From Chitinophagaceae bacterium (lineage in GTDB: Bacteria; Bacteroidota; Bacteroidia; Chitinophagales; Chitinophagaceae): DNA of 13,785 nucleotides. The stretch covers positions 1-13,785 of the forward strand of contig JALOMZ010000016.1 in NCBI GenBank assembly GCA_025455205.1, read 5' to 3'. The position numbers and the translations under genes were made by a program. This document shows, in pieces, positions 162-12,990 of the stretch; position 1 is the first letter of the stretch, and each line of letters begins with the position of its first letter. The notes under the pieces are model-generated. The model made no database searches. It was not told where the DNA came from and worked only from the letters and a program-made list of their open reading frames with translations.

Positions 162-183
162 ATTGCAAGGAGATTGAATGCCT

Positions 184-191: not shown

Positions 192-212
192 CTGCAACCA
201 GCCAATGGGCGG

Positions 213-228: not shown

Positions 229-238
229 AAATGTCCGC

Positions 239-805
239 TCACTGCATGCCCCGGATGCGGCTGAGCGTTTCCTTGGTGATACCAAGAAAGGAAGCGATGT
301 ACAGCCCAGGGACCCGGTGGATGATGTTGGGCGATTGGGCCAGGATCCTTTGATAGCGCTGCTGGGCGGTCTCAAACTGGATGGACTCCATGCGTTGCTG
401 GGAAAGGATCAGCGACGAGGTGACCATCTTGCGTAACAGCTTTTCCACTTCATGATACCGGTCGGCCATTTGCATAAATACATTATAGTGAATCCCCCGG
501 ATCACCGAGGGCTCCAGGGTGTGAATGAGCAGACGGCTGGGCATCCGTTCAAAGAAACTGGTGATAGACAGGAAGAACTGGTCGTCGAGTGCAAGCCATT
601 CCGTTACTTCCCGGTGGTGCTTGCGGTAGAAGATTCGGACGGCGCCGCGCTCAAGGTACCAGAAATAATCAGCCACCTGGTGTTCCCGCAGGATCAGCTG
701 GTCGCGGGAGACCTCCCAACGTTGCCATTGATGCAGGAATTCCTGTGCCTGTGTTGCCGGCAGGACATGTATGCGGGCCAGGGCCCTGGCCAATGAATCG
801 GTCAT
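239..805 (-). CDS. Crp/Fnr family transcriptional regulator
   Basis: This 188-residue protein has a cyclic-nucleotide-binding-like beta-barrel in its first ~115 residues (FWYLERGAVRIFY at 48-60 is the typical strand pair with the conserved Gly). A long dimerisation helix follows at ~115-145, then a C-terminal helix-turn-helix at ~165-186 with the family recognition helix GITKETLSRIRG. There are no cysteines, so it cannot carry an FNR-type iron-sulfur cluster. The GE...RS phosphate-binding motif of true cAMP receptors is not evident, so the effector is unknown. I chose the ATG at 805 because it leaves a 25-bp gap after the upstream DinB gene and has GAGG about 8 nt before it; a longer in-frame start at 865 would overlap that gene. 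The neighbouring palindrome at 213-228 is a candidate target, with the GH3 gene as candidate regulated gene. Confidence 0.88.
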   Translation of the reverse strand: MTDSLARALARIHVLPATQAQEFLHQWQRWEVSRDQLILREHQVADYFWYLERGAVRIFYRKHHREVTEWLALDDQFFLSITSFFERMPSRLLIHTLEPSVIRGIHYNVFMQMADRYHEVEKLLRKMVTSSLILSQQRMESIQFETAQQRYQRILAQSPNIIHRVPGLYIASFLGITKETLSRIRGMQ

Positions 806-830
806 ATGGATATCCTCATTGAATGGTCCT

Positions 831-1349
831 TCACCAGGCAATATACCGGGGCGGTGCAATACCATTGAGTCGCAGGTACACGATCAGCTGCGCCCGGTGG
901 TGGGTTTGATGGTCGCTCAGGATATTGATCATCTGCATTTTGGTGATCTTGCCCGCAAAGAAGGCTACACTGTCGGCCAGCTGTTCTCTGGGCAATGAAG
1001 CAACTGTGGCAATGGCATAATCATACGCGCCGCCAATGGCTTTCATGGCCCCGGCCTTGGAGCTGTCGGTGGGCGGAGGACCGGCCATCCGGCCCCGGTC
1101 GGGCGACACGAATTCCGTGCTGATGTATACCAGGTTTTCTGCCATATGCAGGAGCATGGCCCCAAAGCCCATCTCCTGCGGCGTGGCCCGGAAACTGTAT
1201 TTCTCGGCTGGCATCTTCTCTGCCACCTGCAGGGTATATTCCTTCGCATTCCGCAGGCGCTCGACCGAGGAACGGAGAAAGAGATCATCCTGCCCGAAGA
1301 GTGGGGCAGTGAACAACAGGAAAGCCAGCATCAGGCATTGATTCTTCAT
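831..1349 (-). CDS. DinB family protein, exported
   Basis: The protein has 172 residues. MKNQCLMLAFLLFTAPLFGQ is a signal peptide (residues 1-20), so this start is preferred over in-frame codons up to 1460. The mature part is a four-helix DinB/YfiT-like fold with a candidate metal triad: H68 in the LLHMAEN helix, and H147 and H151 in SDHQTHHRAQL. The C-terminal YLRLNGIAPP is also typical of the family. DinB proteins are divalent-metal-binding and often of unknown function; some act as thiol S-transferases. A signal peptide puts this one in the periplasm, where the usual cytoplasmic low-molecular-weight thiol roles may not apply. It probably heads a minus-strand unit with the Crp/Fnr gene 25 bp downstream, and is divergent from the GNAT gene. 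Confidence 0.85.
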   Translation of the reverse strand: MKNQCLMLAFLLFTAPLFGQDDLFLRSSVERLRNAKEYTLQVAEKMPAEKYSFRATPQEMGFGAMLLHMAENLVYISTEFVSPDRGRMAGPPPTDSSKAGAMKAIGGAYDYAIATVASLPREQLADSVAFFAGKITKMQMINILSDHQTHHRAQLIVYLRLNGIAPPRYIAW

Positions 1350-1401
1350 AGCAAGTCTGTTTCGCCAGGGGAAGTTACGGCATCCGGCCGCTGAACCGTT
1401 G

Positions 1402-1409
1402 TACCTTTG
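1402..1409 (+). promoter_or_regulatory. -7 promoter element of the GNAT gene
   Basis: TACCTTTG is an exact match to the Bacteroidota primary-sigma -7 element TAnnTTTG. No clear -33 TTTG is seen at 19-21 bp. Transcription would begin around 1414-1416, so the message would be practically leaderless for a start at 1417. Confidence 0.5.
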
Positions 1410-1421
1410 CATGATCATGCA
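1408..1421. promoter_or_regulatory. 14-bp perfect palindrome over the GNAT start codon
   Basis: TGCATGATCATGCA is a perfect inverted repeat that begins inside the -7 box and covers the two candidate ATG codons (1411 and 1417) of the GNAT gene. The position suits a repressor site, but ATG/CAT-rich start regions produce such palindromes by chance fairly easily. Confidence 0.3.
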
Positions 1422-1815
1422 TGCCCGTCCCATTACACCTGCCGATTTCCCGGCCATCACCGCCCTGGTGAATGCTGCCTACCGGGGCGAGGCCAGCAAG
1501 GCCGGCTGGACCACCGAGGCCTGGCTGGTGGGAGGGGAACGGCGCACCAACGAGCAACATCTGGCGGAACTGGTGGCCGAGTCCGGCGCGGTGATCCTGC
1601 AGCTGGAATCAGATGCGGGCGAACTGCTGGGTTGTGTATTCCTGCGCCACGATGATGATGGCCTGTACCTGGGTATGCTGAGCGTATGGCCGCAGCTGCA
1701 GGCCAAAGGCTATGGCAAGACCCTGCTCTGGCTGGCCGAGGAGCATGCCCGCAGCCTGGAGGTGCGCCACTGGAGTTTGTGGTGCTGGAAAAGCTGCTCT
1801 GATCTCAGGGATTGA
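1411..1815 (+). pseudogene. GNAT family N-acetyltransferase, internally deleted and frame-shifted
   Basis: The reading frame opens with MIMHARPITPADFPAITALV, a standard GNAT N-terminus (the ATG at 1417 is equally possible). It reaches the acetyl-CoA-binding motif A, YLGMLSVWPQLQAKGYGKTL, and the next helix (EEHARSLE, to about 1761). After that the encoded tail VRHWSLWCWKSCSDLRD is nonsense and stops at 1813-1815. In the +2 frame, 1764-1802 encodes APLEFVVLEKLL-stop, which is the usual last strand of this GNAT subfamily. About 40-45 residues between these parts are missing, including the strand and helix that normally carry the 'R.eLi.wYer.GY' segment. I infer an internal deletion of a length not divisible by three. 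The hexamer CTGGAG occurs at 1756-1761 and 1770-1775, near the junction. If translated, the 134-residue product would lack half of the substrate-binding lobe. Confidence 0.72.
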
Positions 1816-2596
1816 TATGGAATTGGTCGCGGTCGCGCAGAAAGGGCAGGCGGCTGCGAATATCATCCAGGTGCTGGCGCGACAGCGATACCGTGTGAAC
1901 CGCGGCCTCATGGGCCTGCTCATAAAGGATCTCCCCCAGCGGATCCACCACCATGCTGTTGCCACTGTGGTAAATGCCATTCCCGTCGTTGCCCACCCGA
2001 TTTACCCCAACCACATAACACTGGTTTTCGATGGCCCGGGCCTGCAGCAGGGTGCGCCAGGCCTGTGCCCTTCGTTCCGGCCAATTGGCCACATACACCA
2101 GTATATCATATTCCGGATTGCCGTCCTCCGTGGCCTGTTGCCTGGCCCATACCGGAAAGCGCAGGTCATAGCAAACCTGCAGGTTGATGCGAAATCCCCT
2201 GGCTGAGGCTATGAGCCGACGGCTGCCGGAGGCATAGTGCTGGTCTTCGCCGGCATAGGCAAACAGGTGCCGCTTGTCGTAATACCCCAGCTGCCCGTTG
2301 GGCAGCATCCAGATGAGGCGGTTGTAGTAATGCCCGTCTTCTTCAATGATAAGGCTACCGGTGAGGATCACGCGTTTCTCAGCCGCCAGCCGCTGCATCC
2401 ATTGCACCGTGGGGCCTTCCATGGTTTCAGCCAGTTGCTCCGGCCGCATGCTGAAGCCCGTGCTGAACATCTCGGGCAGCACCACCAGCTCTGTTTTGTC
2501 CAGGCCGCGGATCTTCTCTTCCAGCATGGCCAGGTTGGCCGCCTTGTCTTCCCAGTGAAGCGGCGTTTGTATGAGGGTTACAAGCAATGAGGACAT
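1805..2596 (-). CDS. Nitrilase-superfamily amidohydrolase, omega-amidase (YafV/NIT2) type
   Basis: The protein has 263 residues, about the length of the family (roughly 255-265). The Glu-Lys-Cys triad is visible as E42 in LPEMFSTGFSM, K108 in YYDKRHLF and C142 in QVCYDLRFP. The 'MF(S/T)TGFSM' context and 'RHLF.YAGE' are typical of bacterial omega-amidases, which hydrolyse alpha-ketoglutaramate and similar omega-amides in the cytosol. There is no signal peptide. I chose the ATG at 2596 over the in-frame ATG at 2617 because N-terminal homology begins at SLLVTLIQ and a -7 promoter element lies between the two. Its stop at 1805-1807 lies 2 bp from the ancestral-looking GNAT stop at 1800-1802, so the genes converge almost end to end. 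Confidence 0.88.
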   Translation of the reverse strand: MSSLLVTLIQTPLHWEDKAANLAMLEEKIRGLDKTELVVLPEMFSTGFSMRPEQLAETMEGPTVQWMQRLAAEKRVILTGSLIIEEDGHYYNRLIWMLPNGQLGYYDKRHLFAYAGEDQHYASGSRRLIASARGFRINLQVCYDLRFPVWARQQATEDGNPEYDILVYVANWPERRAQAWRTLLQARAIENQCYVVGVNRVGNDGNGIYHSGNSMVVDPLGEILYEQAHEAAVHTVSLSRQHLDDIRSRLPFLRDRDQFHINP

Positions 2597-2600
2597 GCTA

Positions 2601-2608
2601 CGAAGGTA
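2601..2608 (-). promoter_or_regulatory. -7-like promoter element of the nitrilase gene
   Basis: The minus strand reads TACCTTCG, one mismatch from TAnnTTTG, only 4 bp before the ATG at 2596. That would give a leaderless or nearly leaderless transcript. It supports the shorter start for the nitrilase gene. No -33 element is evident. Confidence 0.4.
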
Positions 2609-2638
2609 AGGAGGCATGCGTCTGCCCCTTGGTGATCA

Positions 2639-3547
2639 TCAGGCATAGCCCCAGCTTTTCATCACTTCCAGGTCTTCCCGCATGCAGTCGAGCGGCGCCT
2701 TGCCCTGGTAGCTCTCCTGCTCAATGATCAGGTGTACCCCGGGCTGGCTGGCCACCACCGTTTTCAGGATGTCGCGCAGGGGCACAATGCCTTTGCCGAG
2801 GATGGTGCTCTCGTATTTTTCCTTTCCTTCCGTGGCCAGTATCTCATCCTTTACATGCAGAGAGGCAAACCGGCCCGGGTAGCGTTTCACAATATCGGCC
2901 GCCTGGGCACCGCCATTGTACAGGTTGCCGGTATCCAGTTGCTGCATCACCAGCCTGGGATCGGTTTCCTGCAGGATGATGTCATAGAGGGTGCGGCCTT
3001 TCAACGATTCGCTGAACTCAAAATCGTGGTTATGGTAGCCAAACTGCATGCCATATTTCCGGCACAGCTCCCCACTCTTGTTAAACATTTCCATGGTCTT
3101 CAGCAGGGCATCATAGTCTTTGCGCAGGGCATTATCGAGCCAGGGACTGATGACATATTGCTGGCCCATAAAAGCCGCATCTTCCACTGTCTTCTTCCAG
3201 ACATCGGTAAAATCCTTCGATGCCTCATCCCAGTGCCGGGGAGCAAGCACCGTATGCCCGCTGGGCATTTTCAGCCCCAGGCCATCCAGCAGGGCCTTGA
3301 AGTCCTTGGGGGCATAGCCATAGAACTTGCCATCTACATAGTTGGCATGCTCCACATAGCGGTAGCCCATGCCGGCCAGCGCTTTCAGGGTGCCGGCCGG
3401 ATCCTGCTTCATGTCGGCCCGCACGCAGTAGAGTTGCAATCCGGTGATGCTTTGCGCAGGGGCAAAGGAAAATCCAGGCCTGTACAAGGCCAGGCCTGCC
3501 GCAGACAGGCCCATCAGGCGAAGAAAACGACGTCGAGAGTTTGGCAT
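2639..3547 (-). CDS. Sugar phosphate isomerase/epimerase-like TIM barrel, Tat-exported
   Basis: This 302-residue protein opens with a twin-arginine signal (SRRRFLRLMG at residues 4-13, then a hydrophobic segment), so it is folded in the cytoplasm and exported, as expected for a metal-loaded enzyme. The rest matches the xylose-isomerase-like/AP-endonuclease-2 TIM barrel. Candidate metal ligands are E66 (VEHANY), H172/H174 (GYHNHDFEF), D205 (QLDTGNLY), H231 (SLHVKD) and E276 (IIEQES). Such proteins in Bacteroidota are commonly annotated as sugar phosphate isomerases/epimerases; the true substrate, probably a sugar derivative in the periplasm, is unknown. It lies 42 bp upstream of the nitrilase gene in the same direction, but that gene seems to have its own promoter. 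The start is fixed by the Tat motif. Confidence 0.88.
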   Translation of the reverse strand: MPNSRRRFLRLMGLSAAGLALYRPGFSFAPAQSITGLQLYCVRADMKQDPAGTLKALAGMGYRYVEHANYVDGKFYGYAPKDFKALLDGLGLKMPSGHTVLAPRHWDEASKDFTDVWKKTVEDAAFMGQQYVISPWLDNALRKDYDALLKTMEMFNKSGELCRKYGMQFGYHNHDFEFSESLKGRTLYDIILQETDPRLVMQQLDTGNLYNGGAQAADIVKRYPGRFASLHVKDEILATEGKEKYESTILGKGIVPLRDILKTVVASQPGVHLIIEQESYQGKAPLDCMREDLEVMKSWGYA

Positions 3548-3691
3548 CCGGAAATCGGTTTTAATGGATCAAGATAGCATTTTCTGACTGAAGGTGGCCT
3601 TCGGATGGTGGCCGGGATTCCCGAAGTTCCAACATATGGCAGGCAAACGCCATACCGGGGAAGAACGGTCGGCCAGGCATTTGGGTGGTGA

Positions 3692-3740
3692 TTTCACATA
3701 TTCATGCGATTGCCCCGCCGCCGGGCCTGGTGTTTATTTG
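3692..3740 (+). promoter_or_regulatory. Composite promoter/operator, copy A (small peptide gene)
   Basis: TTTCACAT-N5 (ATTCA)-TGCGATTGCC at 3692-3714 contains the imperfect inverted repeat TCACA-N6-TGCGA and the -33 TTG at 3710-3712. Exactly 20 bp follow, then the -7 box TTTATTTG at 3733-3740 (one mismatch to TAnnTTTG). Predicted transcription start is near 3746, about 13 nt before the ATG at 3759. The same arrangement recurs at 8170 and 8879, and in degenerate form at 9827. Confidence 0.7.
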
Positions 3741-3758
3741 CATACTGAATCACACACA

Positions 3759-3902
3759 ATGACTAAACTCCTCCTGATGGTATTGCTGATGATGTCCGGT
3801 ACCGGATTCTGCCTCCGGAATGCGGCCCGTCCAGCAGTCCCCAAGCCCCCGGCAGCCCTGCACAAACCGGCTGTTTTTGTGCCCCTCGATATCATGAAAT
3901 AG
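3759..3902 (+). CDS. Small exported peptide, 47 residues, function unknown
   Basis: The peptide starts MTKLLLMVLLMMSGTGFCLR, a short basic n-region and strongly hydrophobic core typical of a signal peptide. Cleavage may be near the RNAA stretch; C18 is preceded by Phe, so it is not a good lipobox. The remaining ~25 residues are Pro/Ala-rich with repeated 'PAV' and 'KP' units and end in PLDIMK. I do not recognise a family. Support for a real gene: a composite promoter with good spacing, a predicted ~13-nt leader, and a terminator hairpin that begins at its stop codon, so the whole is a compact one-gene unit. It lies 70 bp upstream of the sensor kinase gene. A role as a ligand or accessory of that sensor is conjecture. 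It could still be a chance ORF inside a small RNA. Confidence 0.55.
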   Translation: MTKLLLMVLLMMSGTGFCLRNAARPAVPKPPAALHKPAVFVPLDIMK

Positions 3903-3919
3903 CCGCTCCGGCTCTTTTT
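3901..3919 (+). terminator. Rho-independent terminator of the small peptide gene
   Basis: AGCCG-CTC-CGGCT forms a 5-bp GC-rich stem with a 3-nt loop at 3901-3913, followed by C and TTTTT at 3915-3919. The stem starts within the TAG stop codon (3900-3902) of the 47-residue ORF. It is short but has the right form, and separates this unit from the kinase promoter. Confidence 0.55.
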
Positions 3920-3944
3920 GACAGGCACAGTCACCGCAAGCCAA

Positions 3945-3952
3945 TACATTTG
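3945..3952 (+). promoter_or_regulatory. -7 promoter element of the sensor kinase gene
   Basis: TACATTTG matches TAnnTTTG exactly. A TTTTTG at 3915-3920 could act as -33, but the 24-bp spacing is longer than usual. The predicted start near 3958 gives a ~15-nt leader before the ATG at 3973. It does not carry the composite operator seen at copies A-C. Confidence 0.5.
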
Positions 3953-3972
3953 AGAAAACTGACCTATCCGTC

Positions 3973-6900
3973 ATGAAGCATTGCTGGCTCAGCTGTTTAT
4001 TGGTTTGCTGCTCCCTGCTCCCTGCCAGGGCACAGACCTTTCGCAGTGCTTTCAACCGCATCTCCACCGAGGATGGCTTTGGCCTGGCCTCCGATCATAT
4101 CCTGGCCCTGCACCAGGACGACAAAGGATATCTCTGGATCGGCGGGGCCAACGGTATGCAGCGCTATGACGGGCATAAGTTCGTCAACATATCTACCGGC
4201 GGCAAGCCCGGCAGTGAGGAACTGCCGGCAGCCAGCGTAGACCGGTTCCTGCCGGCCGACAGCGGACGGTTCTGGGTGGCCGCCACCAGCTATCAGCAGT
4301 TTGGCCTGTTCGATCCCGTACGATTTACCTATCGCTCCGCACGGCTTGCCCCTTCCGCCCCACTGCCCCCCCGCAGTGAATTCAAGCTCTGGCGCGACAG
4401 CAAGGGCAATACCTACATCAACGTGTTCCGTTATGGGAAGATCCTGCGCTATGACCCCGAAAGGAATGAATTCAATGAGAAAACCCCGCTGAACAACCTG
4501 CCCAAAGGATGGAAGATTGCCTTCAACAGTTTTGAAGACACCGTGAAGCGCCGCTACTGGCTGGTGTGCGAACAGGGCCTGGCCGTGTACGATGAGGCCT
4601 CCAGGCAAATGTGGCACAAGGGCTTCAACCCCCAACAACTGCCATTGCTCAACAACGAACATATCCAGCAGGCCGCCAACCTGTTCTTCATAGACAAGCA
4701 GCGGCGGCACTGGCTTTTCCACTGGCCGGGTGACCAGGAATTCCATTGCTTCAATGAACAGGGCCTTGAGTTAACGGATACCGCTGGCATCAGGAGCTCC
4801 CTGCGCACCTATGCAGAATTGGCCCATATGCGGGAGACCCGGAACGGCGACATCTGGGTGTACGGCGCTGCCAACCTGTTTCAGCTGTCGAAGGAAAGCC
4901 ACCGCTTTCAGTTCTATCGCGACCAGTTCCTCGACAACTTTGGCATCCGCTATGAAATGGTGTACGACCTGCTGGAAGCACGCGACGGTATGGTGTGGAT
5001 AGCTACCGACCAGGGGCTGTATTACACAAGAGGCACCGGCATCCAGAAAGGATCCCCCACCGCCATCAATATGTTCCTGTCGCAAAACCCCGGCGAATAC
5101 GAGGTGACAGACCTGCTGGAACTCAAATCGGGCGACTACTGGATCAGCACCTGGGGCAAGGGGGTGATGGCCATGGACCGTGCCTTCAGGCGAAAGAACG
5201 CGCCCATGGGCGAAGGCACCGTTCCCGCGCAGCTGCCGCAAGCCGCGAAAGTTGGCTACCAGCAGGTGTGGACCATGTGCCAGCAAAAGGAAAGCGGCAT
5301 CGTATGGCTGGGCTGCCAGGCCGGCCTGCTCATGCGGTACAACCCGGCCACGGGAAAAACTGAATACCTGCACCCGCCGGAGTTCGATAACCGCACCATA
5401 CGCTATATAACCGAGGACAGCAAGGGCCGGCTTTGGTTTGGCACCCAGGGTGGCCGCGTGATCAAATACGAAGGCAACCGGTTCACAGTGGTGAAAGAAC
5501 TGGAAAAATCAGCCATTGTCTACAAGGTGTTTGCCGATACAGACGGATGGATATGGGTGGCCGCGCAGGACCGCGGTGTCATGGCCATAGACCCCGACAC
5601 CGGCCGGGAGCTGCTGCATTTCACCCGCGAAGACGGCGGCATGTACAATAACAGCCCGCGCGACATTGAGCAGCTCAACGACAGCCTGATGTATGTTTCG
5701 GCCGAAGCCCTGCACATCATCAACAAACGCCGGGGCAGCCTGCGGGTCATCACCACTGCCCAGGGCCTCCCCTCCAACAGCATCCGCCGCATCCGCATGG
5801 ACGCCCGCGGCTACCTGTGGATTATCACCCTCAACGGGTTATGCCGCTATGATCATACCAAGGACCGGTTTACCCCCTATGGCAAAAAGGATGGCATCCT
5901 GCTGGGAACCGTTACCAACGTAGCCGACTATCTCTGCAGTGAGAACTTTGTGATGTTCGTGGGACCCAATGCCCTGATGTTCTTCAACCCTGAGCGGTAC
6001 TATAACAACCCGGCCCCGCCCAATGTCACCATCACCGACTTCCTGCTGGGCAACCGGTATCTCCCCATCGATTCGCTGCAAAACATGCGGGAGGTGCGGC
6101 TCAGTGCTGACCAGAACAACTTCACCATCAGCTTTGCCTGCCTGGATTTCATCAACCGCGACAAGTATGTGTACTACTACCAGCTGGAAGGGCTGGATGA
6201 TGCATGGATCAAGGCCGACCGGCTTGACCTGGCCCTGGCAGGCCTGTCGCCCGGCCGCTATACCTTCCGCGTAAAAGCGGAGAATATCGACGGACTGGTG
6301 TCGAAAGAGATCACCTCCCTGCGCCTCTATATCCAGCCGCCCTTCTGGCGCACCGGGTGGTTCCTCTCATCCATGCTCATGCTCTTCACCATCATTGGTT
6401 ATACCATGCACCGTATGCGGGTGAACCGGCTGCTGGCCGTGGAAGGCATCCGCAACCGCGTGGCCCGCGACCTGCACGACGACATGGGCAGCACCCTCAG
6501 CACCATCAATATCCTGAGCTCCATGGCCAAAGCCAAAATGCATTCCGACGAGGCACGGGCCGTGGAATACATCAACAAGATCAGCGACAACAGCCAGCGT
6601 ATGATGGAAGCCATGGACGATATTGTGTGGGCCATCAAGCCGGCCAACGACAGCATGCAGAAACTGGTGGCCCGCCTCCGCGAATTTGCCACCCAGGTAT
6701 TCGAAGCCAAAGACATCGACCTCTCCTTTGTGGCCGGCGACGAAGTGAACGATGTAAAACTGGACATGGAGGCCCGCCGCGACTTCTTCCTCATTGGCAA
6801 AGAAGCCATCAACAATGCCGCCAAGTACGCCAAATGCAGCCTGGTAACCATTGAAGTGCAGGTGACAGGCCGTGAGCTGAGCCTGCGCGTGCAGGACAAT

Positions 6901-7047
6901 GGCATTGGCTTTGACCCCCAGGCAGCCGATGGGGGCAACGGCATGGGCAATATGCAACGACGGGCACAGGCATTGCGGGGACAACTGAAAATCAATTCAA
7001 AACCTGGTGCCGGCACAGAGATCATCCTGCAGGTACCCCTGCCATAA
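3973..7047 (+). CDS. Two-component sensor histidine kinase with periplasmic beta-propellers (reg_prop, Y_Y_Y, HisKA_3, HATPase_c)
   Basis: The protein has 1024 residues. A signal peptide (MKHCWLSCLLVCCSLLPARA) exports a large sensor of reg_prop repeats (~24-700), for example DDKGYLWIGG, RDGMVWIATDQG, DSKGRLWFGTQGG, DTDGWIWVAAQDRG and DARGYLWIITLNG; together these usually form two seven-bladed propellers. A Y_Y_Y domain follows (~715-785, with YYYQLEGLDDAW), then one transmembrane segment (~796-814). The cytoplasmic kinase has the phosphorylated H835 in RDLHDDMGSTLS (HisKA_3), N-box E944/N947/N948, G1 box DNGIGFD (975-981) and G2 box GGNGMGN (987-993). It has no receiver or DNA-binding domain, so it is not a fused hybrid. 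The natural partner is the NarL-type regulator at 8238. Propeller sensors of this kind often detect glycans, but the ligand here is unknown. Confidence 0.95.
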   Translation: MKHCWLSCLLVCCSLLPARAQTFRSAFNRISTEDGFGLASDHILALHQDDKGYLWIGGANGMQRYDGHKFVNISTGGKPGSEELPAASVDRFLPADSGRFWVAATSYQQFGLFDPVRFTYRSARLAPSAPLPPRSEFKLWRDSKGNTYINVFRYGKILRYDPERNEFNEKTPLNNLPKGWKIAFNSFEDTVKRRYWLVCEQGLAVYDEASRQMWHKGFNPQQLPLLNNEHIQQAANLFFIDKQRRHWLFHWPGDQEFHCFNEQGLELTDTAGIRSSLRTYAELAHMRETRNGDIWVYGAANLFQLSKESHRFQFYRDQFLDNFGIRYEMVYDLLEARDGMVWIATDQGLYYTRGTGIQKGSPTAINMFLSQNPGEYEVTDLLELKSGDYWISTWGKGVMAMDRAFRRKNAPMGEGTVPAQLPQAAKVGYQQVWTMCQQKESGIVWLGCQAGLLMRYNPATGKTEYLHPPEFDNRTIRYITEDSKGRLWFGTQGGRVIKYEGNRFTVVKELEKSAIVYKVFADTDGWIWVAAQDRGVMAIDPDTGRELLHFTREDGGMYNNSPRDIEQLNDSLMYVSAEALHIINKRRGSLRVITTAQGLPSNSIRRIRMDARGYLWIITLNGLCRYDHTKDRFTPYGKKDGILLGTVTNVADYLCSENFVMFVGPNALMFFNPERYYNNPAPPNVTITDFLLGNRYLPIDSLQNMREVRLSADQNNFTISFACLDFINRDKYVYYYQLEGLDDAWIKADRLDLALAGLSPGRYTFRVKAENIDGLVSKEITSLRLYIQPPFWRTGWFLSSMLMLFTIIGYTMHRMRVNRLLAVEGIRNRVARDLHDDMGSTLSTINILSSMAKAKMHSDEARAVEYINKISDNSQRMMEAMDDIVWAIKPANDSMQKLVARLREFATQVFEAKDIDLSFVAGDEVNDVKLDMEARRDFFLIGKEAINNAAKYAKCSLVTIEVQVTGRELSLRVQDNGIGFDPQAADGGNGMGNMQRRAQALRGQLKINSKPGAGTEIILQVPLP

Positions 7048-7056
7048 ACCCCTGCC

Positions 7057-8163
7057 ATGAACAGATTGCTCAGCCGGAAATTCAGGTTTCTCACGTTCAT
7101 GTGCATTGTGCTGCTGGCCTATGTACATGGCTACAACCTGAAAAACCCATACCTGGCGCCCTTTTCATCGGTGAAGGAATCCCTCACCTTCACCACCTTC
7201 TTTGAGTACCTGGTGGCCAACGGACTGCTCCGATTCCGTATCCCAATCCTGTTTATGATATCCGGGTATCTCTATGTCCTGTATGATAACCAGCCTTATG
7301 GAACCCGTATCGCCAAAAGATTCAGGACGCTGCTCCTGCCCTACCTGCTCTGGAGCGCCCTGGCCCTCCTGTTCACCTTCCTGCTGCAGCAGTTACCATA
7401 TACCGCCCGCATCGTGGAAACCGCACATATTGACCAGCTGGGCGATAACCGGCCCTATACCGAAATCGGCTGGGGCGGTATCATCTGGCGCTGGCTGCTC
7501 AACCCCACCGCCTACCAGCTCTGGTTCATACTGGTGCTCTTTGTATACAACCTGATATATCCGTTCATTCGCTGGATACTGCTCCGCTATGCCTGGATAT
7601 GGCTCTCCATCACAGGATTCCTCTGGTTCACCTTTTTCAACCTCGGATTCATTGAAGGGCAGGGCCTCTTTTTCTTCTCGCTGGGCGCCTGGTTCAAGCT
7701 GCACAACAAGAGCATTGAGAAGCCTCCTCGGTGGTACAGCGAAGGCATTGCCTGGATCCTGTTCATCGGGCTCTGTGTGATCAAGACCTTCCTGGCCTTT
7801 GAGCTGGAGGGCGATACCATGCCCACCTTTGTCATCCTTTCCATCATCTACAACCTGAGTGTGCTCTGTGGCATTGTGGCCGTTTGGTACAGCACAGACA
7901 GGCTGTCTGCTCTGGCCATGAACAATCCCCTGTTCCGGCGGGCCACCGGTTATTCCTTTTTCCTCTATGGTATGCATATCCCGCTGCTGCCCTACGCTAT
8001 GACAGCAGTGATGGGAATTGGAGCTGCTTTCCCCCTCTATCGCATTACAGCCTACTTGTTGCTGCCGGCAGCCGTGATGGCACTCTGCCTGCTCTGCGGC
8101 TGGCTGCTGAAACGCCTCTGGCCGGATGGCTATGCATTAATAGCCGGCGGACGCGGACTCTGA
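7057..8163 (+). CDS. Acyltransferase 3 family integral membrane protein
   Basis: This 368-residue protein has about ten hydrophobic segments. It shows the family's marks: a conserved His near the end of the first membrane segment (H24 in LAYVHGYN), R61 in the FRIPILFMISGYLY segment (60-73), YLLWSALALL, QLWFILVLFVYN and a late FFLYGMHIPLL segment. Family members move acyl groups, such as acetyl or succinyl, from the cytosol to extracellular sugars or other surface molecules. It starts 9 bp after the kinase stop, so the two are probably co-transcribed, and it separates the kinase from its presumed regulator. The acceptor is unknown; a substrate related to the signal sensed is possible but unproven. 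The ATG at 7057 is the first in frame after the kinase. Confidence 0.85.
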   Translation: MNRLLSRKFRFLTFMCIVLLAYVHGYNLKNPYLAPFSSVKESLTFTTFFEYLVANGLLRFRIPILFMISGYLYVLYDNQPYGTRIAKRFRTLLLPYLLWSALALLFTFLLQQLPYTARIVETAHIDQLGDNRPYTEIGWGGIIWRWLLNPTAYQLWFILVLFVYNLIYPFIRWILLRYAWIWLSITGFLWFTFFNLGFIEGQGLFFFSLGAWFKLHNKSIEKPPRWYSEGIAWILFIGLCVIKTFLAFELEGDTMPTFVILSIIYNLSVLCGIVAVWYSTDRLSALAMNNPLFRRATGYSFFLYGMHIPLLPYAMTAVMGIGAAFPLYRITAYLLLPAAVMALCLLCGWLLKRLWPDGYALIAGGRGL

Positions 8164-8169
8164 GCACGC

Positions 8170-8218
8170 TTTCACATCCTTGTGTGATTGCCGGGACCAA
8201 ACACAGCCTGTACCTTCG
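8170..8218 (+). promoter_or_regulatory. Composite promoter/operator, copy B (response regulator gene)
   Basis: TTTCACAT-N5 (CCTTG)-TGTGATTGCC at 8170-8192 contains the perfect TCACA-N6-TGTGA inverted repeat and the -33 TTG at 8188-8190. After exactly 20 bp comes TACCTTCG at 8211-8218, a -7 box with one mismatch. The predicted start near 8224 gives a ~14-nt leader before the ATG at 8238. The element begins 6 bp after the acyltransferase stop, so the regulator can be transcribed independently of the kinase. Confidence 0.72.
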
Positions 8219-8237
8219 GGAAAATAATCCTGGCATT

Positions 8238-8870
8238 ATGATCAAAGTAGTGATATATGAAGACAACCCCCAGCTGCGCGAAGGGCTCTCCATGCTGATT
8301 GACGGCAGCGACGGGTTCACCGTGCTGGCGGCCTTCAAAAACTGCAACAATGTGGTGGAGGAAGTAGCCACCTTCCAGCCCGATGTGGTGCTGATGGACA
8401 TTGACATGCCAGGCATCAATGGCATCGAAGGACTGAAACTGTTGCGGCAGGCCAACAACAACGTCAAGATCCTCATGCTCACCGTATTCGATGACAATAA
8501 GAATGTCTTCGAAGCCATACGCAGTGGCGCCAATGGTTACATATTGAAGAAGACCCCGCCATCCAAGCTCCTGGAATACATTGAAGAAGCAGCCACCGGT
8601 GGCGCACCCATGACGGCCTCCATTGCCACCCAGGTGCTTAAAATGTTTTCCGAGATACACAACAGCACCAACGACAACTATAACCTGAGCGACCGCGAGA
8701 AGCAGGTACTGCAATTGCTGGTGAATGGGTACAGCTACAAGATGATCGCCGGCGAGATGTTCATTGCCATCGATACCGTGCGCAGCCATATCAAGAAGAT
8801 CTACGAAAAACTGCATGTGAACAGCAAGAGCGAGGCCGTGGCCAAAGCCTTCAAAGACAAACTGGTGTGA
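8238..8870 (+). CDS. NarL/FixJ-family response regulator (REC + LuxR-type HTH)
   Basis: The protein has 210 residues. The receiver domain (~2-120) has the acidic pair E8/D9, phosphoacceptor D54 in VVLMDIDMPG, T82 in LMLTVFDD and K104 or K105 in GYILKKT. The GerE/LuxR DNA-binding domain (~148-205) has LSDREKQVLQLLVNGYSYK and the recognition helix around DTVRSHIKKIYEKL. These match the usual partners of HisKA_3 kinases, so phosphotransfer from the kinase at 3973 is likely. The frame is open far upstream, but homology begins at MIKVVIYEDN, and the copy B promoter lies between the acyltransferase stop and this ATG. Copies of the same operator stand directly before and directly after this gene, which suggests autoregulation; that is inference. 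Confidence 0.94.
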   Translation: MIKVVIYEDNPQLREGLSMLIDGSDGFTVLAAFKNCNNVVEEVATFQPDVVLMDIDMPGINGIEGLKLLRQANNNVKILMLTVFDDNKNVFEAIRSGANGYILKKTPPSKLLEYIEEAATGGAPMTASIATQVLKMFSEIHNSTNDNYNLSDREKQVLQLLVNGYSYKMIAGEMFIAIDTVRSHIKKIYEKLHVNSKSEAVAKAFKDKLV

Positions 8871-8878
8871 TACAGGTA

Positions 8879-8927
8879 TTTCACATGAACATGTGATTGC
8901 CCGCCACCACCGCTGTTGCTATGTTTG
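8879..8927 (+). promoter_or_regulatory. Composite promoter/operator, copy C (downstream of response regulator)
   Basis: TTTCACAT-N5 (GAACA)-TGTGATTGCC at 8879-8901 contains TCACATGAACATGTGA, an inverted repeat with perfect 7-bp arms, and the -33 TTG at 8897-8899. Exactly 20 bp follow, then the -7 box TATGTTTG (8920-8927), an exact match to TAnnTTTG. This is the best copy of the element. The predicted start is near 8933, 174 bp before the hemerythrin ATG, with a strong terminator in between. Confidence 0.75.
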
Positions 8928-8932
8928 CCGCA

Positions 8933-9034
8933 GGTTTTACAGCACACCACACACCCCTCGCCAACACCCATGCAACAGCATCATGCATCTGCCTGCAATC
9001 GTTTTTCCGGCCTGGTCGTGCACCAGGCTTTTTT
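8933..9034 (+). ncRNA. Candidate ~100-nt small RNA or attenuated leader
   Basis: The copy C promoter predicts a transcript from about 8933 that meets a strong hairpin-plus-T6 terminator ending at 9034. The body is CA-rich and looks weakly structured before the terminator. It could be an independent small RNA whose synthesis responds to the regulator that binds copy C, or a leader in which termination is conditional and controls the hemerythrin gene. No known RNA family was recognised. The ends are predictions from the promoter and terminator only. Confidence 0.42.
9010..9034 (+). terminator. Strong Rho-independent terminator
   Basis: GCCTGGT (9010-9016), loop CGTGC, ACCAGGC (9022-9028) form a perfect 7-bp stem, directly followed by TTTTTT (9029-9034). 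It lies 140 bp after the response regulator stop and 73 bp before the hemerythrin start, so it would end transcripts from the regulator and from the copy C promoter alike. Confidence 0.8.
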
Positions 9035-9065
9035 CTTGCCCCGCAAGCAAGCACGCCCGCGTGCT
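9035..9065 (+). other. Two small hairpins in the hemerythrin leader
   Basis: CTTGC-CCC-GCAAG (9035-9047) and AGCACGC-CC-GCGTGCT (9050-9065) follow directly on the terminator. They could protect or structure a read-through leader. The remainder before the ATG at 9107 is A/C-rich with no Shine-Dalgarno sequence, and I see no good -7 box between 9035 and 9106, so the hemerythrin gene may depend on read-through. Confidence 0.35.
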
Positions 9066-9106
9066 CATCCATACTCCATTTTTAAACCCCCTCAAACAAA
9101 ACACAC

Positions 9107-9793
9107 ATGACACCCCGTTACAATCCATTCACCCAGATCCACAAAGGCCTGCGTGCCCTGCTTTACGACACCGCCCTTGCCCTGCAGCACAACGACTTCA
9201 ACAATGAACGAACCACCGCCCTGGTTGCAGACCAGGTGCAGAAAGTGCTCTGGCTCTTTGAAGGCCATGCCCACACGGAAGACAGTATGGTGTTTCCCCT
9301 GATTGCACAGCATGCCCCCGGGCTGGTTGCCGACTTTGAAGCACAACACGAAAAAGACCACGCCCTGGGCCAGGCCGTGCAGGATAAACTGGAAGCCCTG
9401 GCTCAATGCCAGGATACCGTGTCAAGGGAGATGGCCGGCACCGCACTACAGCAGGCCTTCGAATGCTTTGTGGCCTTTAACCTGGAGCATATGGTGATGG
9501 AAGAAACCCTGGTGGCTCCCATCATCTGGCAGCACTATTCCGATGAAGCGCTGCATGCCCTCACAGGAGAGATTGTTCGCTCCCTGCCGGCCGATAAAAA
9601 TGAGCAGTATACCAACTGGATGATCCTCGGTCTCAATGATGTGGAACTCATTCAATGGCTTACCGGTGTAAGGCAGACAGCCCCTTCCTTTGTTTTTGAC
9701 AGCCTCTGCACCACGGCGCAGCAACTGCTGAAGGAATCACGCTGGCAAAAGCTGCAGCAGGTGCTGCAAACTTCCGAAGCCATGGCCTGCTGA
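9107..9793 (+). CDS. Hemerythrin HHE-domain protein
   Basis: The protein has 228 residues and no signal peptide, so it is cytosolic. The four-helix bundle (~8-145) has the di-iron ligand pattern: H12 (QIHKGLR), H54 and E58 (GHAHTED, H-x3-E), H81/H85 (QHEKDH) and H128 and E132 (EHMVMEE, H-x3-E). Related HHE proteins bind O2 or nitric oxide or serve iron and redox responses, including repair of damaged iron-sulfur proteins. The C-terminal ~80 residues (PADKNEQYTNWMILGLNDVE onward) are a helical extension of unknown role. It lies downstream of the copy C promoter and the 9010-9034 terminator, so its expression may require read-through. The next gene has its own promoter-like element. Confidence 0.85.
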   Translation: MTPRYNPFTQIHKGLRALLYDTALALQHNDFNNERTTALVADQVQKVLWLFEGHAHTEDSMVFPLIAQHAPGLVADFEAQHEKDHALGQAVQDKLEALAQCQDTVSREMAGTALQQAFECFVAFNLEHMVMEETLVAPIIWQHYSDEALHALTGEIVRSLPADKNEQYTNWMILGLNDVELIQWLTGVRQTAPSFVFDSLCTTAQQLLKESRWQKLQQVLQTSEAMAC

Positions 9794-9810
9794 GGGCAGC
9801 CTTCACACAA

Positions 9811-9828
9811 TTGCAAAGGTTTTGCAAA
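9811..9828 (+). repeat. TTGCAAA direct repeat, one helical turn apart
   Basis: TTGCAAA occurs at 9811-9817 and again at 9822-9828, spaced 11 bp start to start, and the second is part of the palindrome TTTGCAAA. GGTTT-TGC-AAACC (9818-9830) can also fold as a small hairpin without a T-run. It lies just upstream of the copy D promoter, so it may be a second regulatory site for the lipoprotein operon. Confidence 0.3.
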
Positions 9829-9875
9829 CCACCCATTCATGCGATAGGCGGTCCGCCCCATGCACAACACCTTTG
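9827..9875 (+). promoter_or_regulatory. Composite promoter/operator, degenerate copy D (lipoprotein operon)
   Basis: Aligned to copy A, the right half is kept (ATTCATGCGAT at 9835-9845 is identical over 11 bases), while the left arm is CCACC instead of TCACA and the -33 TTG reads TAG. The -7-like box CACCTTTG (9868-9875, one mismatch) is again exactly 20 bp from the -33 position. The predicted start near 9881 gives a ~16-nt leader before the ATG at 9897. Confidence 0.42.
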
Positions 9876-9896
9876 AACACACAAAAACACACACCC

Positions 9897-10454
9897 ATGA
9901 AAGCAATCACGCTTTGCCTGTTGGCCGGCTCCCTGCTCTTCAGCAGTTGTATCCAGGAAATAGCCAACGGCACCCGCAATAACCCGGCAGCAGATTTCAC
10001 CCTCCGCCTCAATATTGAAGAAACGGATGGCACCACCCGGCAGCAGGTAAGCACCGCCACCAACATACCCGGCGCCGCAGAAGGCATCTCCCAGATTGAA
10101 GTGAAGGAAAGCAAGGTAAACCTGCGCCTCGGGGGCATTACCTTTTCCCCTAACGTCACACTTACCCTGAGTGCCAACCTGCGCTTCCTGCAGGCCACGC
10201 GGCCGGAACAGATTGCCGGCGAATACAACCTGCCCGCCGATGCCGACAAGCTGCTCATTACCATGGGCTGGCTCCGCGATGGCACACAGCATTTCTACAG
10301 CCCGGCCATCACCGGCAAAGTACAAGTGCAGTACGATGCCGCCACCAACACCTGGAACGGCGAACTGCAGGGCATCGGATTCAACAAGCCCCTCAATGCG
10401 CCCTACCGGTCCATTCAGCTGCATGGCAGGTTCAACCACGTGCCTTTTCTGTAA
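9897..10454 (+). CDS. Lipoprotein of unknown family, 185 residues
   Basis: MKAITLCLLAGSLLFSSC is an SPII signal with lipobox FSSC and lipidated C18, so the mature protein is a membrane-anchored lipoprotein. The body is rich in alternating polar/hydrophobic beta-strand segments (FTLRLNIEETDG, KVNLRLGGITFSPNVTLTLS, LLITMGWLRDGTQHFY, KVQVQYDAATNTWNGELQGI), suggesting a small beta-sandwich. I do not recognise a family. It is the first gene of a three-lipoprotein operon, 43 bp before the next. The start is fixed by the signal peptide, and the upstream sequence is A/C-rich without a Shine-Dalgarno. Confidence 0.72.
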   Translation: MKAITLCLLAGSLLFSSCIQEIANGTRNNPAADFTLRLNIEETDGTTRQQVSTATNIPGAAEGISQIEVKESKVNLRLGGITFSPNVTLTLSANLRFLQATRPEQIAGEYNLPADADKLLITMGWLRDGTQHFYSPAITGKVQVQYDAATNTWNGELQGIGFNKPLNAPYRSIQLHGRFNHVPFL

Positions 10455-10497
10455 AGACCAACCCACTACCCGCACCATCACCCACAAACAAAATCCC

Positions 10498-10941
10498 ATG
10501 CGCATCGCCGGATCCATGGCCCTGGCGGCCATCCTCTTTACATCGTGCACCAAAGAAACCCTGCCCATCGAACCCCGGCAAACCCAGGAAGAAAAGACCG
10601 TCCGGTTTGAGATTGGCCGGGTGTCAGATTACAGCCAGCCCGGCAGTGCCGATCTCAACGTTGATATCCAACTTCACTTGTCGCTCCAAAACAGGGAAAC
10701 AGGCGCCTACACAGCGGTTTGGGATACCACCTACGCCATGCGCCCCGTTACGGAATTCCCGCATGCATCCCTGCCATTGGCTATTGAAAAAAGAGTGGTC
10801 AACACAAAGCCCATGGACCAGATGCTGAAAGCCAGCTACAACCTGCGCTTCTGGAGAAACGATATCATCCAATACCAGTCGGCCGCCATCATACCGCTGA
10901 ATACCGGTCACGCAACCTTTACCGTCCCCGTTAATTTGTAA
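10498..10941 (+). CDS. Lipoprotein of unknown family, 147 residues
   Basis: MRIAGSMALAAILFTSC is an SPII signal with lipidated C17, followed by the Lys/Glu-containing TKETLPIEP linker usual in Bacteroidota lipoproteins. The mature part alternates beta-like stretches (KTVRFEIGRVSDY, DLNVDIQLHLSLQN, KASYNLRFWRNDI, GHATFTVPVNL). No family is recognised. It resembles its upstream neighbour in size and beta-rich character without obvious sequence identity. It sits 43 bp after that gene and 34 bp before the third lipoprotein, with no promoter seen in either gap, so all three are probably one operon. Confidence 0.72.
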   Translation: MRIAGSMALAAILFTSCTKETLPIEPRQTQEEKTVRFEIGRVSDYSQPGSADLNVDIQLHLSLQNRETGAYTAVWDTTYAMRPVTEFPHASLPLAIEKRVVNTKPMDQMLKASYNLRFWRNDIIQYQSAAIIPLNTGHATFTVPVNL

Positions 10942-10975
10942 ACCATCATTCCATCACTAAAAAACACACACGATC

Positions 10976-11740
10976 ATGAAAAGAATCCTCATGGCCTGCA
11001 CCATTCTGCTGTCGCTGGCCGCCTGTCAGAAAGAAAATTCCGTTGAAACACCCGGTCAGGAAAGACTGGCAGAAGTGCGGTTTGGCGACGAATACGCAAA
11101 ATTTGAGTATGCCGCCAATGGCCAGCTTACCAAGGCCATCGTAAAAGATGATGTATCCACTACCGGCGAAGAAGTGGTATTCAATATCAGCTATGGCAGC
11201 GCCGGCCAGATTTCCGAAGTGCAAAAGAGCGACGGAGAAACCATCCGCCCCGTGTACCAGAACAACAGGCTCGTAAAAGCTGAAGTATTCAGCGGTGCCG
11301 AAAAAGTCGGGTATACCGATTACATCTATGAAAACAATCTCCTGAAAACAGTGGAAATAAAATTCACCGCCTTTGGCGATGATATCACCACCATGAAATT
11401 TGTTTTTACCTACGATGCCCAGCAACGCATACAGCGTTCGCATGTTTGGCTGCTGAATCCCCTCACCGATGTACTGGAAGACGCCGGTTATTCAGTACTC
11501 GAATACGATAACAAGACCAACCCGCTGTACCAGGCCCGCGATTTCATGCTGTTGCTCTGGGACCTGCCCTCGCCCAACAACATCACCAAGGAAACCCAAT
11601 TCCTGGCCGACAACACCCTGGACGAGACCCGCGAATACACCTATACCTACAACAGCAAGAACCAGCCCGCTTCTGCCGTTCAGAAAACCACTTCCGGCGG
11701 CCAGCAGTCCAACACCAATATCACCTTCCGCTACCAGTAA
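10976..11740 (+). CDS. Lipoprotein with YD-like (RHS-type) repeats, 254 residues
   Basis: MKRILMACTILLSLAAC carries the lipobox LAAC with lipidated C17. The mature part is a chain of short aromatic-Asx/Gly-X-X-leu units: FEYAANGQLTKA, ISYGSAGQISEV, PVYQNNRLVKA, YIYENNLLKTV, FTYDAQQRIQRS, LEYDNKTNPLY, YTYNSKNQPASA. These resemble the YD repeats of RHS proteins and of Bacteroidota DUF4595-like lipoproteins, which form beta-sheet structures at the cell surface. The function is unknown, and there is no toxin-like C-terminal domain. It is the last gene of the three-lipoprotein operon and ends 24 bp before a strong terminator. Confidence 0.82.
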   Translation: MKRILMACTILLSLAACQKENSVETPGQERLAEVRFGDEYAKFEYAANGQLTKAIVKDDVSTTGEEVVFNISYGSAGQISEVQKSDGETIRPVYQNNRLVKAEVFSGAEKVGYTDYIYENNLLKTVEIKFTAFGDDITTMKFVFTYDAQQRIQRSHVWLLNPLTDVLEDAGYSVLEYDNKTNPLYQARDFMLLLWDLPSPNNITKETQFLADNTLDETREYTYTYNSKNQPASAVQKTTSGGQQSNTNITFRYQ

Positions 11741-11764
11741 ACGGAATCAACCCCAACAACCAAC

Positions 11765-11798
11765 ACCGGTTACCGCCTTTTGCGGTGCCGGTTTTTTT
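11765..11798 (+). terminator. Rho-independent terminator of the lipoprotein operon
   Basis: ACCGG-TT-ACCGC (11765-11776), loop CTTTT, then GCGGT-G-CCGGT (11782-11792) form two 5-bp helices interrupted by a small internal loop (TT against G), followed by T7 (11792-11798). A clear operon end. Confidence 0.85.
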
Positions 11799-11885
11799 GT
11801 TGTCGCCAAGCCTGGTGGCAGACAGCGGAAATCCTAAAATTGCGCGGCCTGCCAAGCCTCTACGCAGCCAAAACCCTGTGAGGCC

Positions 11886-11893
11886 TACCTTTG
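11886..11893 (+). promoter_or_regulatory. -7 promoter element of dusB
   Basis: TACCTTTG is an exact TAnnTTTG match only 7 bp before the inferred TTG start at 11901. Transcription from about 11899 would produce an almost leaderless message. No -33 element is evident. Confidence 0.5.
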
Positions 11894-11900
11894 CCGCGCT

Positions 11901-12938
11901 TTGGCAACCATTGGCAACATATCACTCCCTGCATTCCCGCTGTTGCTGGCGCCCATGGAAGACGTGAGCGACCCGCCCTTCCGCGCCGTGTGCAAGGCCA
12001 ACGGTGCCGACCTGATGTACACCGAATTCATCAGCAGCGAGGGCCTGATACGCGATGCCATCAAGAGCAGGCAAAAGCTCGACATCTTTGACGACGAACG
12101 CCCGGTGGGCATCCAGATCTTCGGCGGCGATGAGGAAGCTATGGCCATGAGCGCCCGTATTGTGGAGACCGTGAACCCCGACCTGCTCGACATCAACTTC
12201 GGCTGCCCGGTGAAGAAGGTGGTGACCAAAGGCGCCGGCGCGGCCGTACTCAAGGATGTGGACCTGATGGTGCGCCTCACGGCCGCCTGCGTGAAAAGCA
12301 CCAAACTGCCCGTGACGGTAAAGACCCGCCTGGGTTGGGACGACAGCAGCAAGAACATTGTGGAAGTGGCCGAACGCCTGCAGGACGTGGGCATCCAGGC
12401 CCTGGCCATACATGGCCGCACACGGGCACAGCTCTATAAGGGCCAGGCCGACTGGACCCTGATTGCCGAGGTGAAGAACAACCCCCGCATCAAAATCCCC
12501 ATCTTTGGCAACGGCGATATCGACAGCCCCGAGAAAGCCCTGGAATACCAGCGCCGCTATGGCGTGGATGGCATCATGATCGGCCGCGCCGCCATCGGCT
12601 ATCCCTGGATCTTCAATGAGATCAAACATTTTGTGCAAACCGGCCAGCACCTGCCGCCACCCAACATACAGCAACGCGTGGATGTAATCCGACGCCACCT
12701 GCACGGCAGCGTAAAATGGAAAGGCGACAAACTGGGCATCCTGGAAATGCGCCGCCATTATACCAACTACCTCAAGGGCATGCCCAATATCAAGGAATAC
12801 CGCCTCAAACTGGTGTCGCTACAGTCGCTGGAAGAGCTCGATGCCGTGCTGGATGAAATTGTGCGGGTATATGATGGATTTGTCTTCGAGCCCCGCAAGA
12901 TCGATATGGATGCCATGGCGTACAGCTGCGATGGATGA
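11901..12938 (+). CDS. dusB: tRNA-dihydrouridine synthase DusB
   Basis: The 345-residue flavoenzyme reduces specific uridines in tRNA to dihydrouridine using FMN and NAD(P)H. Family motifs appear in order: LLLAPMEDVSDPPFRAVC (FMN site, ~14-31), DLMYTEFISSEGL, VGIQIFGG, DINFGCPVKKVVTKGAGAAV with catalytic C102, VTVKTRLGWD, AIHGRTRAQLYKGQADW, IFGNGDI and GIMIGRAAIGYPWIF, then the C-terminal helical tRNA-binding domain. Homology begins at ATIGNISLPAFPLLLAPMED, and the only suitable initiation codon before it is TTG at 11901; the first in-frame ATG would cut off the FMN site. It stands alone, after the lipoprotein operon terminator. Confidence 0.94.
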   Translation: MATIGNISLPAFPLLLAPMEDVSDPPFRAVCKANGADLMYTEFISSEGLIRDAIKSRQKLDIFDDERPVGIQIFGGDEEAMAMSARIVETVNPDLLDINFGCPVKKVVTKGAGAAVLKDVDLMVRLTAACVKSTKLPVTVKTRLGWDDSSKNIVEVAERLQDVGIQALAIHGRTRAQLYKGQADWTLIAEVKNNPRIKIPIFGNGDIDSPEKALEYQRRYGVDGIMIGRAAIGYPWIFNEIKHFVQTGQHLPPPNIQQRVDVIRRHLHGSVKWKGDKLGILEMRRHYTNYLKGMPNIKEYRLKLVSLQSLEELDAVLDEIVRVYDGFVFEPRKIDMDAMAYSCDG

Positions 12939-12990
12939 GCACCACCTGTTGAAACAGCCGAACTATTCAAATAAAAATAAATGCAGTTGT

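Follow-up and report, generated by a model that had tools for sequence, protein, structure and literature searches.

A predicted operator–promoter of a NarL-type response regulator recurs at its own gene and at a small regulon in Chitinophagaceae

In this work, we analyse a stretch of 13,785 nucleotides (the window) from Chitinophagaceae bacterium (assembly GCA_025455205.1, contig JALOMZ010000016.1, positions 1 to 13,785), in which one composite element stands in four copies, A to D, in and around a two-component locus. The element joins a 16-bp palindrome to a −33/−7 promoter of Bacteroidota type, and with high confidence we propose that it is the operator–promoter of the NarL-type response regulator (RR) encoded at 8238, which would act through it on its own gene and on a small regulon. 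We read the element in this way because its sites mark the RR's own gene and because, in homologues, their letters follow the RR's recognition helix.

The element in the window and in the source genome

Common to copies A, B and C are the palindrome (TCACAT-N4-[AG]TG[TC]GA), a TTG that directly abuts its right arm and, exactly 20 bp further on, a −7 box, with the centre of the palindrome 31.5 bp before that box. A preliminary description of the window had given these sequences, the gap and the distance, and all were found as described when the window was reread.

3692..3740, forward strand: copy A; palindrome 3694-3709, TTG 3710-3712, 20-bp spacer, −7 box TTTATTTG at 3733-3740
8170..8218, forward strand: copy B; palindrome 8172-8187, −7 box TACCTTCG at 8211-8218; proposed autoregulatory operator/promoter of the RR
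8879..8927, forward strand: copy C; perfect palindrome TCACATGAACATGTGA at 8881-8896, −7 box TATGTTTG at 8920-8927
9827..9875, forward strand: copy D; left arm in the variant form CACCC, ATGCGATAG, 20-bp spacer, −7 box CACCTTTG at 9868-9875

Scored with a matrix learned from relatives, copies A to D reach 33.4, 27.1, 35.4 and 18.6 bits, and the sole further match above 8 bits in the window is C read on the opposite strand (10.4 bits). Copy D is thus a weaker variant; it keeps the right half and the 20-bp spacing noted for it earlier, but the left arm that had been thought missing is present as CACCC, a form that recurs at relatives' sites. Copy C reads as two inverted heptamers 2 bp apart (7-2-7, TCACATG-AA-CATGTGA), as does the matrix of 75 RR-promoter sites. 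The palindrome and TTG alone are ordinary in the window (11 matches with 3 mismatches compared to 7.6 expected), and it is the full element that is unusual.

The Bacteroides sigma-ABfr promoter consists of TTTG at −33 and TAnnTTTG at −7 (PMC7366714). Both parts are present here, the first as TTG, at matrix positions 18-20 and 41-48, with the boxes of A, B and D differing from TAnnTTTG by one or two bases, and this match to a known promoter favours reading the element as a long housekeeping promoter with a chance palindrome. What sets the element apart from the sigma-ABfr promoter is the fixed 20-bp spacing, an operator arm that runs into the TTG, and its small number of genes.

Every genome must carry many housekeeping promoters, whereas the 2.36 Mb of the source genome that we searched (62% complete) hold only four exact matches to TTTCACAT-N5-TGYGATTGCC, three of them in the window (A, B and C) and one on the minus strand at C180:15234. 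With up to three mismatches, there are 11 matches, compared to 3 for the pattern read backwards, and the whole-genome search called for in the preliminary description revealed no spread over hundreds of unrelated genes. The element is more than a housekeeping promoter and has few copies per genome; as a whole explanation, such a promoter is refuted by this low copy number and by the absence of the strict element from 258 of 265 family genomes without the RR, and we assign it practically no probability.

Outside the window, three more elements were found in the source genome:

C180:15234, minus strand: exact match
C180:14825, minus strand: two mismatches; before a lipoprotein gene
C72:16012, plus strand: found with the pattern that includes the −7 box; before a gene for a 256-residue lipoprotein-like protein

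The copies in the window do precede the genes that had been listed as served by the element (a small peptide, the RR, a leader with a hemerythrin gene, and lipoproteins), but these further elements extend the candidate regulon beyond the locus to which it had been limited.

The response regulator, its promoter and its recognition helix

The element follows the presence of the RR across 294 genomes of the family, in line with the earlier idea of a shared regulator. Taking as RR-positive those genomes whose best match has E < 1e-100 and at least 78% identity, we find the strict element in 16 of 29 RR-positive compared to 7 of 265 RR-negative genomes (Fisher P = 1.2e-13), 48 of its 55 hits fall in RR-positive genomes, and the reversed pattern occurs in 0 of 294. 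This comparison over all family genomes is the fair test. When up to three mismatches are allowed, all 30 RR-positive genomes examined carry 2 to 13 matches (155 in total) compared to a single match in 4 of 29 chosen RR-negative genomes (reversed pattern, one match in 3 of 60), a contrast biased upward because the 29 were picked after the strict test and omit the 7 with strict hits. A candidate description of the element as phylum-wide was dropped, as an RR orthologue is present in 3 of 296 phylum genomes and in 29 of 294 family genomes.

The RR is of NarL/FixJ type (PF00072, 2.4e-26; PF00196, 7.4e-18), with 1a04 as its best match in the Protein Data Bank. It did not come out as NarL itself, scoring 152 bits against an equivalog cut-off of 250, with no passing family among the matches listed (25 of 101 families). 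Ten genomes of the same genus, the source included, hold 11 to 32 matches to it each. Its helix-turn-helix (HTH) domain is the most conserved (0.938 compared to 0.832 for the receiver).

As RR-orthologue loci we used the best 80 of 504 matches, which are 75-84% identical to the RR, lie on contigs scanned with the RR protein alone, and are assigned to Chitinophagaceae, Cyclobacteriaceae, Flavobacteriaceae, Prolixibacteraceae, their genera, or Bacteroidetes; L133 (Chitinophagaceae metagenome-assembled genome Prado041) is a contig identical to L046 (G002:C391), and L175 overlaps L079. In 75 of the 80, the 130 bp before the RR start contain a site that differs from the pattern at no more than 5 of 17 positions, whereas 160 of 4,000 random 130-bp windows of those loci match, real sites included. 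When aligned, the RR-promoter sites keep ACAT, ATGTG, TTG and TAnnTTTG around a 20-bp spacer that carries almost no information, which agrees with the earlier description of a conserved signal with a non-conserved spacer. Among operators followed by a good box, 165 of 207 keep the 20-bp spacing, compared to no preferred spacing at random positions. Because the matrix was built from RR promoters, their own scores are circular while those of other sites are not; 176 further sites reach at least 20 bits in the 80 loci, where ten matrices with permuted columns give 0.8 such sites on average.

No exact motif was found in 118 relatives, a null result that we attribute to too strict a pattern because G002, a genome of the same genus, holds the motif at the same place with one mismatch. 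On its contig C391, the kinase end, the acyltransferase and the RR follow in the order of the window, with copy B at the same place and a different spacer, and on another contig (L162) copy A is kept before a 47-residue peptide and a kinase start. The comparison of orthologous loci that had been recommended thus yields a conserved RR-promoter site in most of them, with A and B both kept in this close relative.

More distant RRs appear to keep the layout and to change the half-site along with the recognition helix. We collected 61 RR loci, the window and 60 homologues (twenty, then forty more) at 49-70% identity, and sought, up to 130 bp upstream, the best 16-bp palindrome that has 4 or more of its 6 pairs intact and is followed by a −7 box as far away as in the element, in a test that ignored the letters of the half-sites and was designed after the homologue sites had been inspected. 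Palindrome and box in the layout of the element were found in 30 of 61 loci, compared to 128 of 1,220 shuffles and 5 of 61 reversed upstream regions. The helix RFHIKK pairs with CTACAT and RSHIKK with TCACAT; RSHIRS, THIRS and similar helices go with GCAT in at least one arm, ATVNSHISH with TCATT arms (2 loci), and ETVRTHIKR with TACCAT (1 locus). Among the passing RRs, the 7 with DTVRFHIKK all have [CT]TACAT-GAT[CG]-ATGT[AG]G; L221 is an eighth RR of this type, whose CCACATGATCATGTAG falls short of the threshold. At L193, L211, L222, L224, L227, L236 and L237, which share this helix, the operator is nearly invariant (CTACATGATCATGTAG) and its distance to the −7 box much the same, and L193 carries three such sites.

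A phenylalanine at residue 183 is paired with T in 17 of 18 half-sites; a serine there is paired with C in 20 of 28, with A in 6 and with T in 2. Residues 182, 183 and 186 of the RR in the window align with NarL K188, V189 and K192 (by manual count, assuming chain numbering plus one), which we take to be base contacts. Distances between half-sites correlate with those between recognition helices (r = 0.57) and with those between receivers (r = 0.58); in a partial Mantel test that removes receiver distance, r is 0.41, and any of the three values was reached in 0 of 5,000 permutations.

Proposed mechanism and competing readings

The genes and other features of the window on which a mechanism would act are:

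239-865, reverse strand: Crp-like protein; cNMP-binding domain at 26.8 bits, against a Pfam cut-off of 27.5
3759..3902, forward strand: 47-residue peptide with a hydrophobic N-terminus and the C-terminus VPLDIMK; its ATG lies 18 nt past the −7 box of A
3901..3913, forward strand: terminator-like hairpin and T run directly 3' of the peptide, from a consensus scan only
3945-3952, forward strand: candidate own promoter box of the kinase, TACATTTG, read from the sequence
3973..7047, forward strand: sensor kinase (Reg_prop, Y_Y_Y, HisKA_3, HATPase_c)
7057..8163, forward strand: acyltransferase (Acyl_transf_3)
8238..8870, forward strand: the RR (receiver and LuxR/GerE HTH), proposed binder of A-D
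8933..9036, forward strand: predicted leader or short RNA behind C, with a terminator-like hairpin (9009-9029) and a T run at its end
9107..9793, forward strand: hemerythrin-domain protein, by domain search
9897..10454, forward strand: lipoprotein LP1, behind copy D
10498..10941, forward strand: lipoprotein LP2, sharing 28% identity with the lipoprotein encoded after the C180:14825 site
10976..11740, forward strand: lipoprotein LP3, with a weak DUF4595 match

In the mechanism that we propose, the propeller kinase would sense something in the periplasm and phosphorylate the RR, whose phosphorylated dimer would bind the palindrome TCACATN-NN-NATGTGA where it is fused to the TTG of the −33 box. 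If transcription starts 6 bp past the −7 box, as we assume, the operator would be centred at −44.5, and the RR would contact RNA polymerase there as an activator. Copy B would then provide positive autoregulation of the RR, copy A would induce the 47-residue peptide, copy C would drive the leader or short RNA and, by read-through, the hemerythrin gene, and copy D would induce the three lipoproteins. The induced genes would form a small regulon directed at the cell envelope. Related RRs of Bacteroidota, with the same layout and other half-sites, would keep parallel circuits apart.

We favour an activator site because NarL sites at napF and yeaR sit near −44 and because the promoter elements agree with those of the Bacteroides consensus. 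NarL-type dimers recognise inverted heptamers in the 7-2-7 arrangement, at −40/−49 in napF and at −38/−47 in yeaR (PMC4549865). The RR could instead repress by covering the −33 box, with phosphorylation tightening or releasing it, as the right arm abuts the TTG in a way that makes occlusion possible and the sequence does not give the sign. Repressor sites, however, usually tolerate other positions, and the rigid 20-bp spacing to the box fits an activator, which leaves repression distinctly unlikely.

The half-sites of CRP are TCACA and TGTGA, which makes a Crp/Fnr-type regulator, such as the protein encoded at 239-865, a further candidate binder of the palindrome. Six of the 80 loci have a gene similar to this cNMP-binding-domain gene in their flanks, and at L082 and L084 a Crp-like gene itself stands 169 and 645 bp behind a site. 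Yet the CRP consensus is TGTGA-N6-TCACA and the arms here are inverted relative to it, so that the element fails as a CRP/FNR operator. There is no Crp homologue in the fetched flanks of 74 of the 80 loci (flanks only, the rest of those genomes being unsearched), and the site tracks the RR and its recognition helix instead, which makes a Crp-type binder very improbable.

Several observations weigh against the element as operator–promoter of this RR. The strict element is missing from 13 of 29 RR-positive genomes, and G004 holds 4 sites and no RR orthologue in its 67% assembly. Matches to the operator only, with one mismatch allowed, occur in 24 of 293 orthologue-free phylum genomes compared to 6 of 296 for the reversed pattern, from which it follows that other regulators may share similar sites; one of these matches lies just behind an RR homologue of 51% identity. 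Among the homologues, 31 of 61 loci are without the palindrome in the element's layout, L184 (RTHIRG with CACAT) departs from the helix trend, and at L179 the procedure chose another palindrome than the TCACAT one present there. The sequences are related and their counts non-independent, and the partial Mantel test removes shared descent only in part. In G002, the RR (L046 3192-3797) has 201 residues, with nine of the recognition helix (VRSHIKKIY) missing in frame while copies A and B are kept, which would reflect either an assembly error or a recently changed regulator. Activation, finally, is inferred from the operator position alone. The earlier idea of a shared operator–promoter of the RR thus gains from the few, conserved and RR-dependent copies and loses some ground to the regulator of G002.

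The kinase had been listed among the genes whose promoters lack the element, but A lies upstream of the peptide, the kinase and the acyltransferase; in keeping with that listing, the hairpin at 3901-3913 and the kinase's candidate own box precede the kinase. A homologue of the acyltransferase stands between kinase and RR in 28 of 80 RR-orthologue loci. A conserved RNA after copy C was considered and dropped, as the leader folds in an ordinary way (z = +0.8; equalled or bettered by 157 of 200 shuffles) and a scan of the window finds no Rfam family.

Target genes and small peptides

Recurrent genes behind the sites encode LP3-like lipoproteins, cytochrome c, extracytoplasmic function (ECF) sigma factors, Nfu/NifU, the kinase, DUF2807 and TonB-receptor-like proteins, beta-lactamase-fold hydrolases and S41 peptidases, as judged from scans of twenty cluster representatives, with single-member clusters left unannotated. 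The targets in the window recur as well. A same-strand site lies within 3 kb upstream of LP3 homologues in 13 of 13 distinct loci and of hemerythrin homologues in 5 of 7, the single homologue of LP1 that we found, in G122 (L169), is preceded by a site at a distance of 71 bp, and all 4 loci homologous to LP2 have one within 1.5 kb upstream. L154, matched by the C180 lipoprotein only, is without a minus-strand site and is a possible LP2-type exception.

The 19 ECF genes behind sites, in 18 loci, could mean that the element is a promoter recognised by an ECF sigma factor. With the reservation about single-member clusters given above, the ECF cluster is among the targets in those 18 loci only, and palindrome and helix covariation point to an HTH dimer rather than to a sigma factor, which renders this reading extremely improbable next to binding by the RR. 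At L109, L120, L121, L127, L143, L152 and L157 (sites 10748-10779) and at L151 (6387), a site stands before a 54-56-residue peptide and an ECF sigma gene close to the RR, which suggests an RR-to-ECF cascade at these eight loci.

Other observations concern single loci. After the C180:15234 copy (L012), a predicted RNA at C180:15060-15180 on the minus strand carries a strong terminator-like hairpin at its end and has a better fold than 200 of 200 shuffles (z = −3.2), with no ATG noticed near its start, and is a candidate RR-controlled small RNA. The same locus holds look-alike pairs (6642-8435 with 8735-9820, and 9970-11691 with 11983-13047), each a regulator-like followed by a secreted-looking protein, labels that are read from the translations only; a perfect palindrome, TCACAAGGATTTGTGA, lies at 11715 before the secreted-looking protein of the second pair. 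G002 and G004 each have a 303-residue secreted-looking protein with a similar site (L161 569, plus strand; L166 2685, minus strand).

Small peptides are a recurrent class of their own. Defining them as open reading frames of 25-110 codons with a hydrophobic head and an ATG at most 90 nt from the box, we found that 45 of 176 sites of at least 22 bits that are unassigned to an RR open with such a peptide, compared to 4 of 211 other intergenic TAnnTTTG boxes (P = 4e-13, a guide only as the loci are related); 5 of these 176 sites are RR promoters missed in the calling of reading frames and 6 are read on both strands. The peptides occur in 40 of 81 loci, and 26 of them lie within 500 bp of an RR or kinase gene. 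Five families show an excess at the third codon position, kept ends and a variable middle. Short kept C-termini of the peptides are VPLDxxK (VPLDIMK in the window, VPLDFLK in G002), DELKLA, RFELW and LHGELLFKF. Neither the 47-residue peptide of the window nor one member of each family has a match in Pfam. From their hydrophobicity only, we infer that the peptides are exported. Those of L130, L138, L136, L144 and L113 have alternating hydrophobic and aromatic ends (RFELW, LLFKF, SKFEF), which presumably resemble the C-termini of outer-membrane proteins.

One speculative and rather unlikely extension is a peptide-feedback circuit new to Bacteroidota, in which the RR would induce exported peptides with signal-like heads, encoded beside the propeller kinase or the RR, whose mature C-terminus acts as ligand or antagonist of the kinase, with parallel circuits insulated by the helix/half-site code. 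Secreted-peptide pheromone circuits of Gram-positive bacteria offer a comparison: they share a regulator site before a small peptide gene next to a kinase/RR gene, whereas here the arrangement is known from sequence alone. Hybrid two-component systems with Reg_prop/Y_Y_Y sensors control polysaccharide loci; they share the sensor domains, and differ in that here the kinase and the NarL-type RR are separate and the targets are peptides, lipoproteins and hemerythrin.

The closest likeness is to the NarL/NarP operators of Escherichia coli (napF, yeaR), which share the RR family, the inverted heptamers 2 bp apart and the position near −44 (PMC4549865 for the operators). Here, however, the heptamer is TCACATN and not of TACC type, with TACCAT or TACCCC arms only at some homologues, and it is combined with a Bacteroidota −33/−7 promoter, a propeller-type kinase and predicted autoregulation of the RR, with no link to nitrate seen. 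No operator for this RR is named in the literature that we found by search.

The more interesting part would be the wider lesson that an operator code can be read from autoregulated RR promoters. With an operator read from the RR's own promoter and letters that track its recognition helix, the operators and regulons of many uncharacterised two-component systems may become predictable from sequence, and the recurring small peptides would give a concrete entry to what these circuits do.

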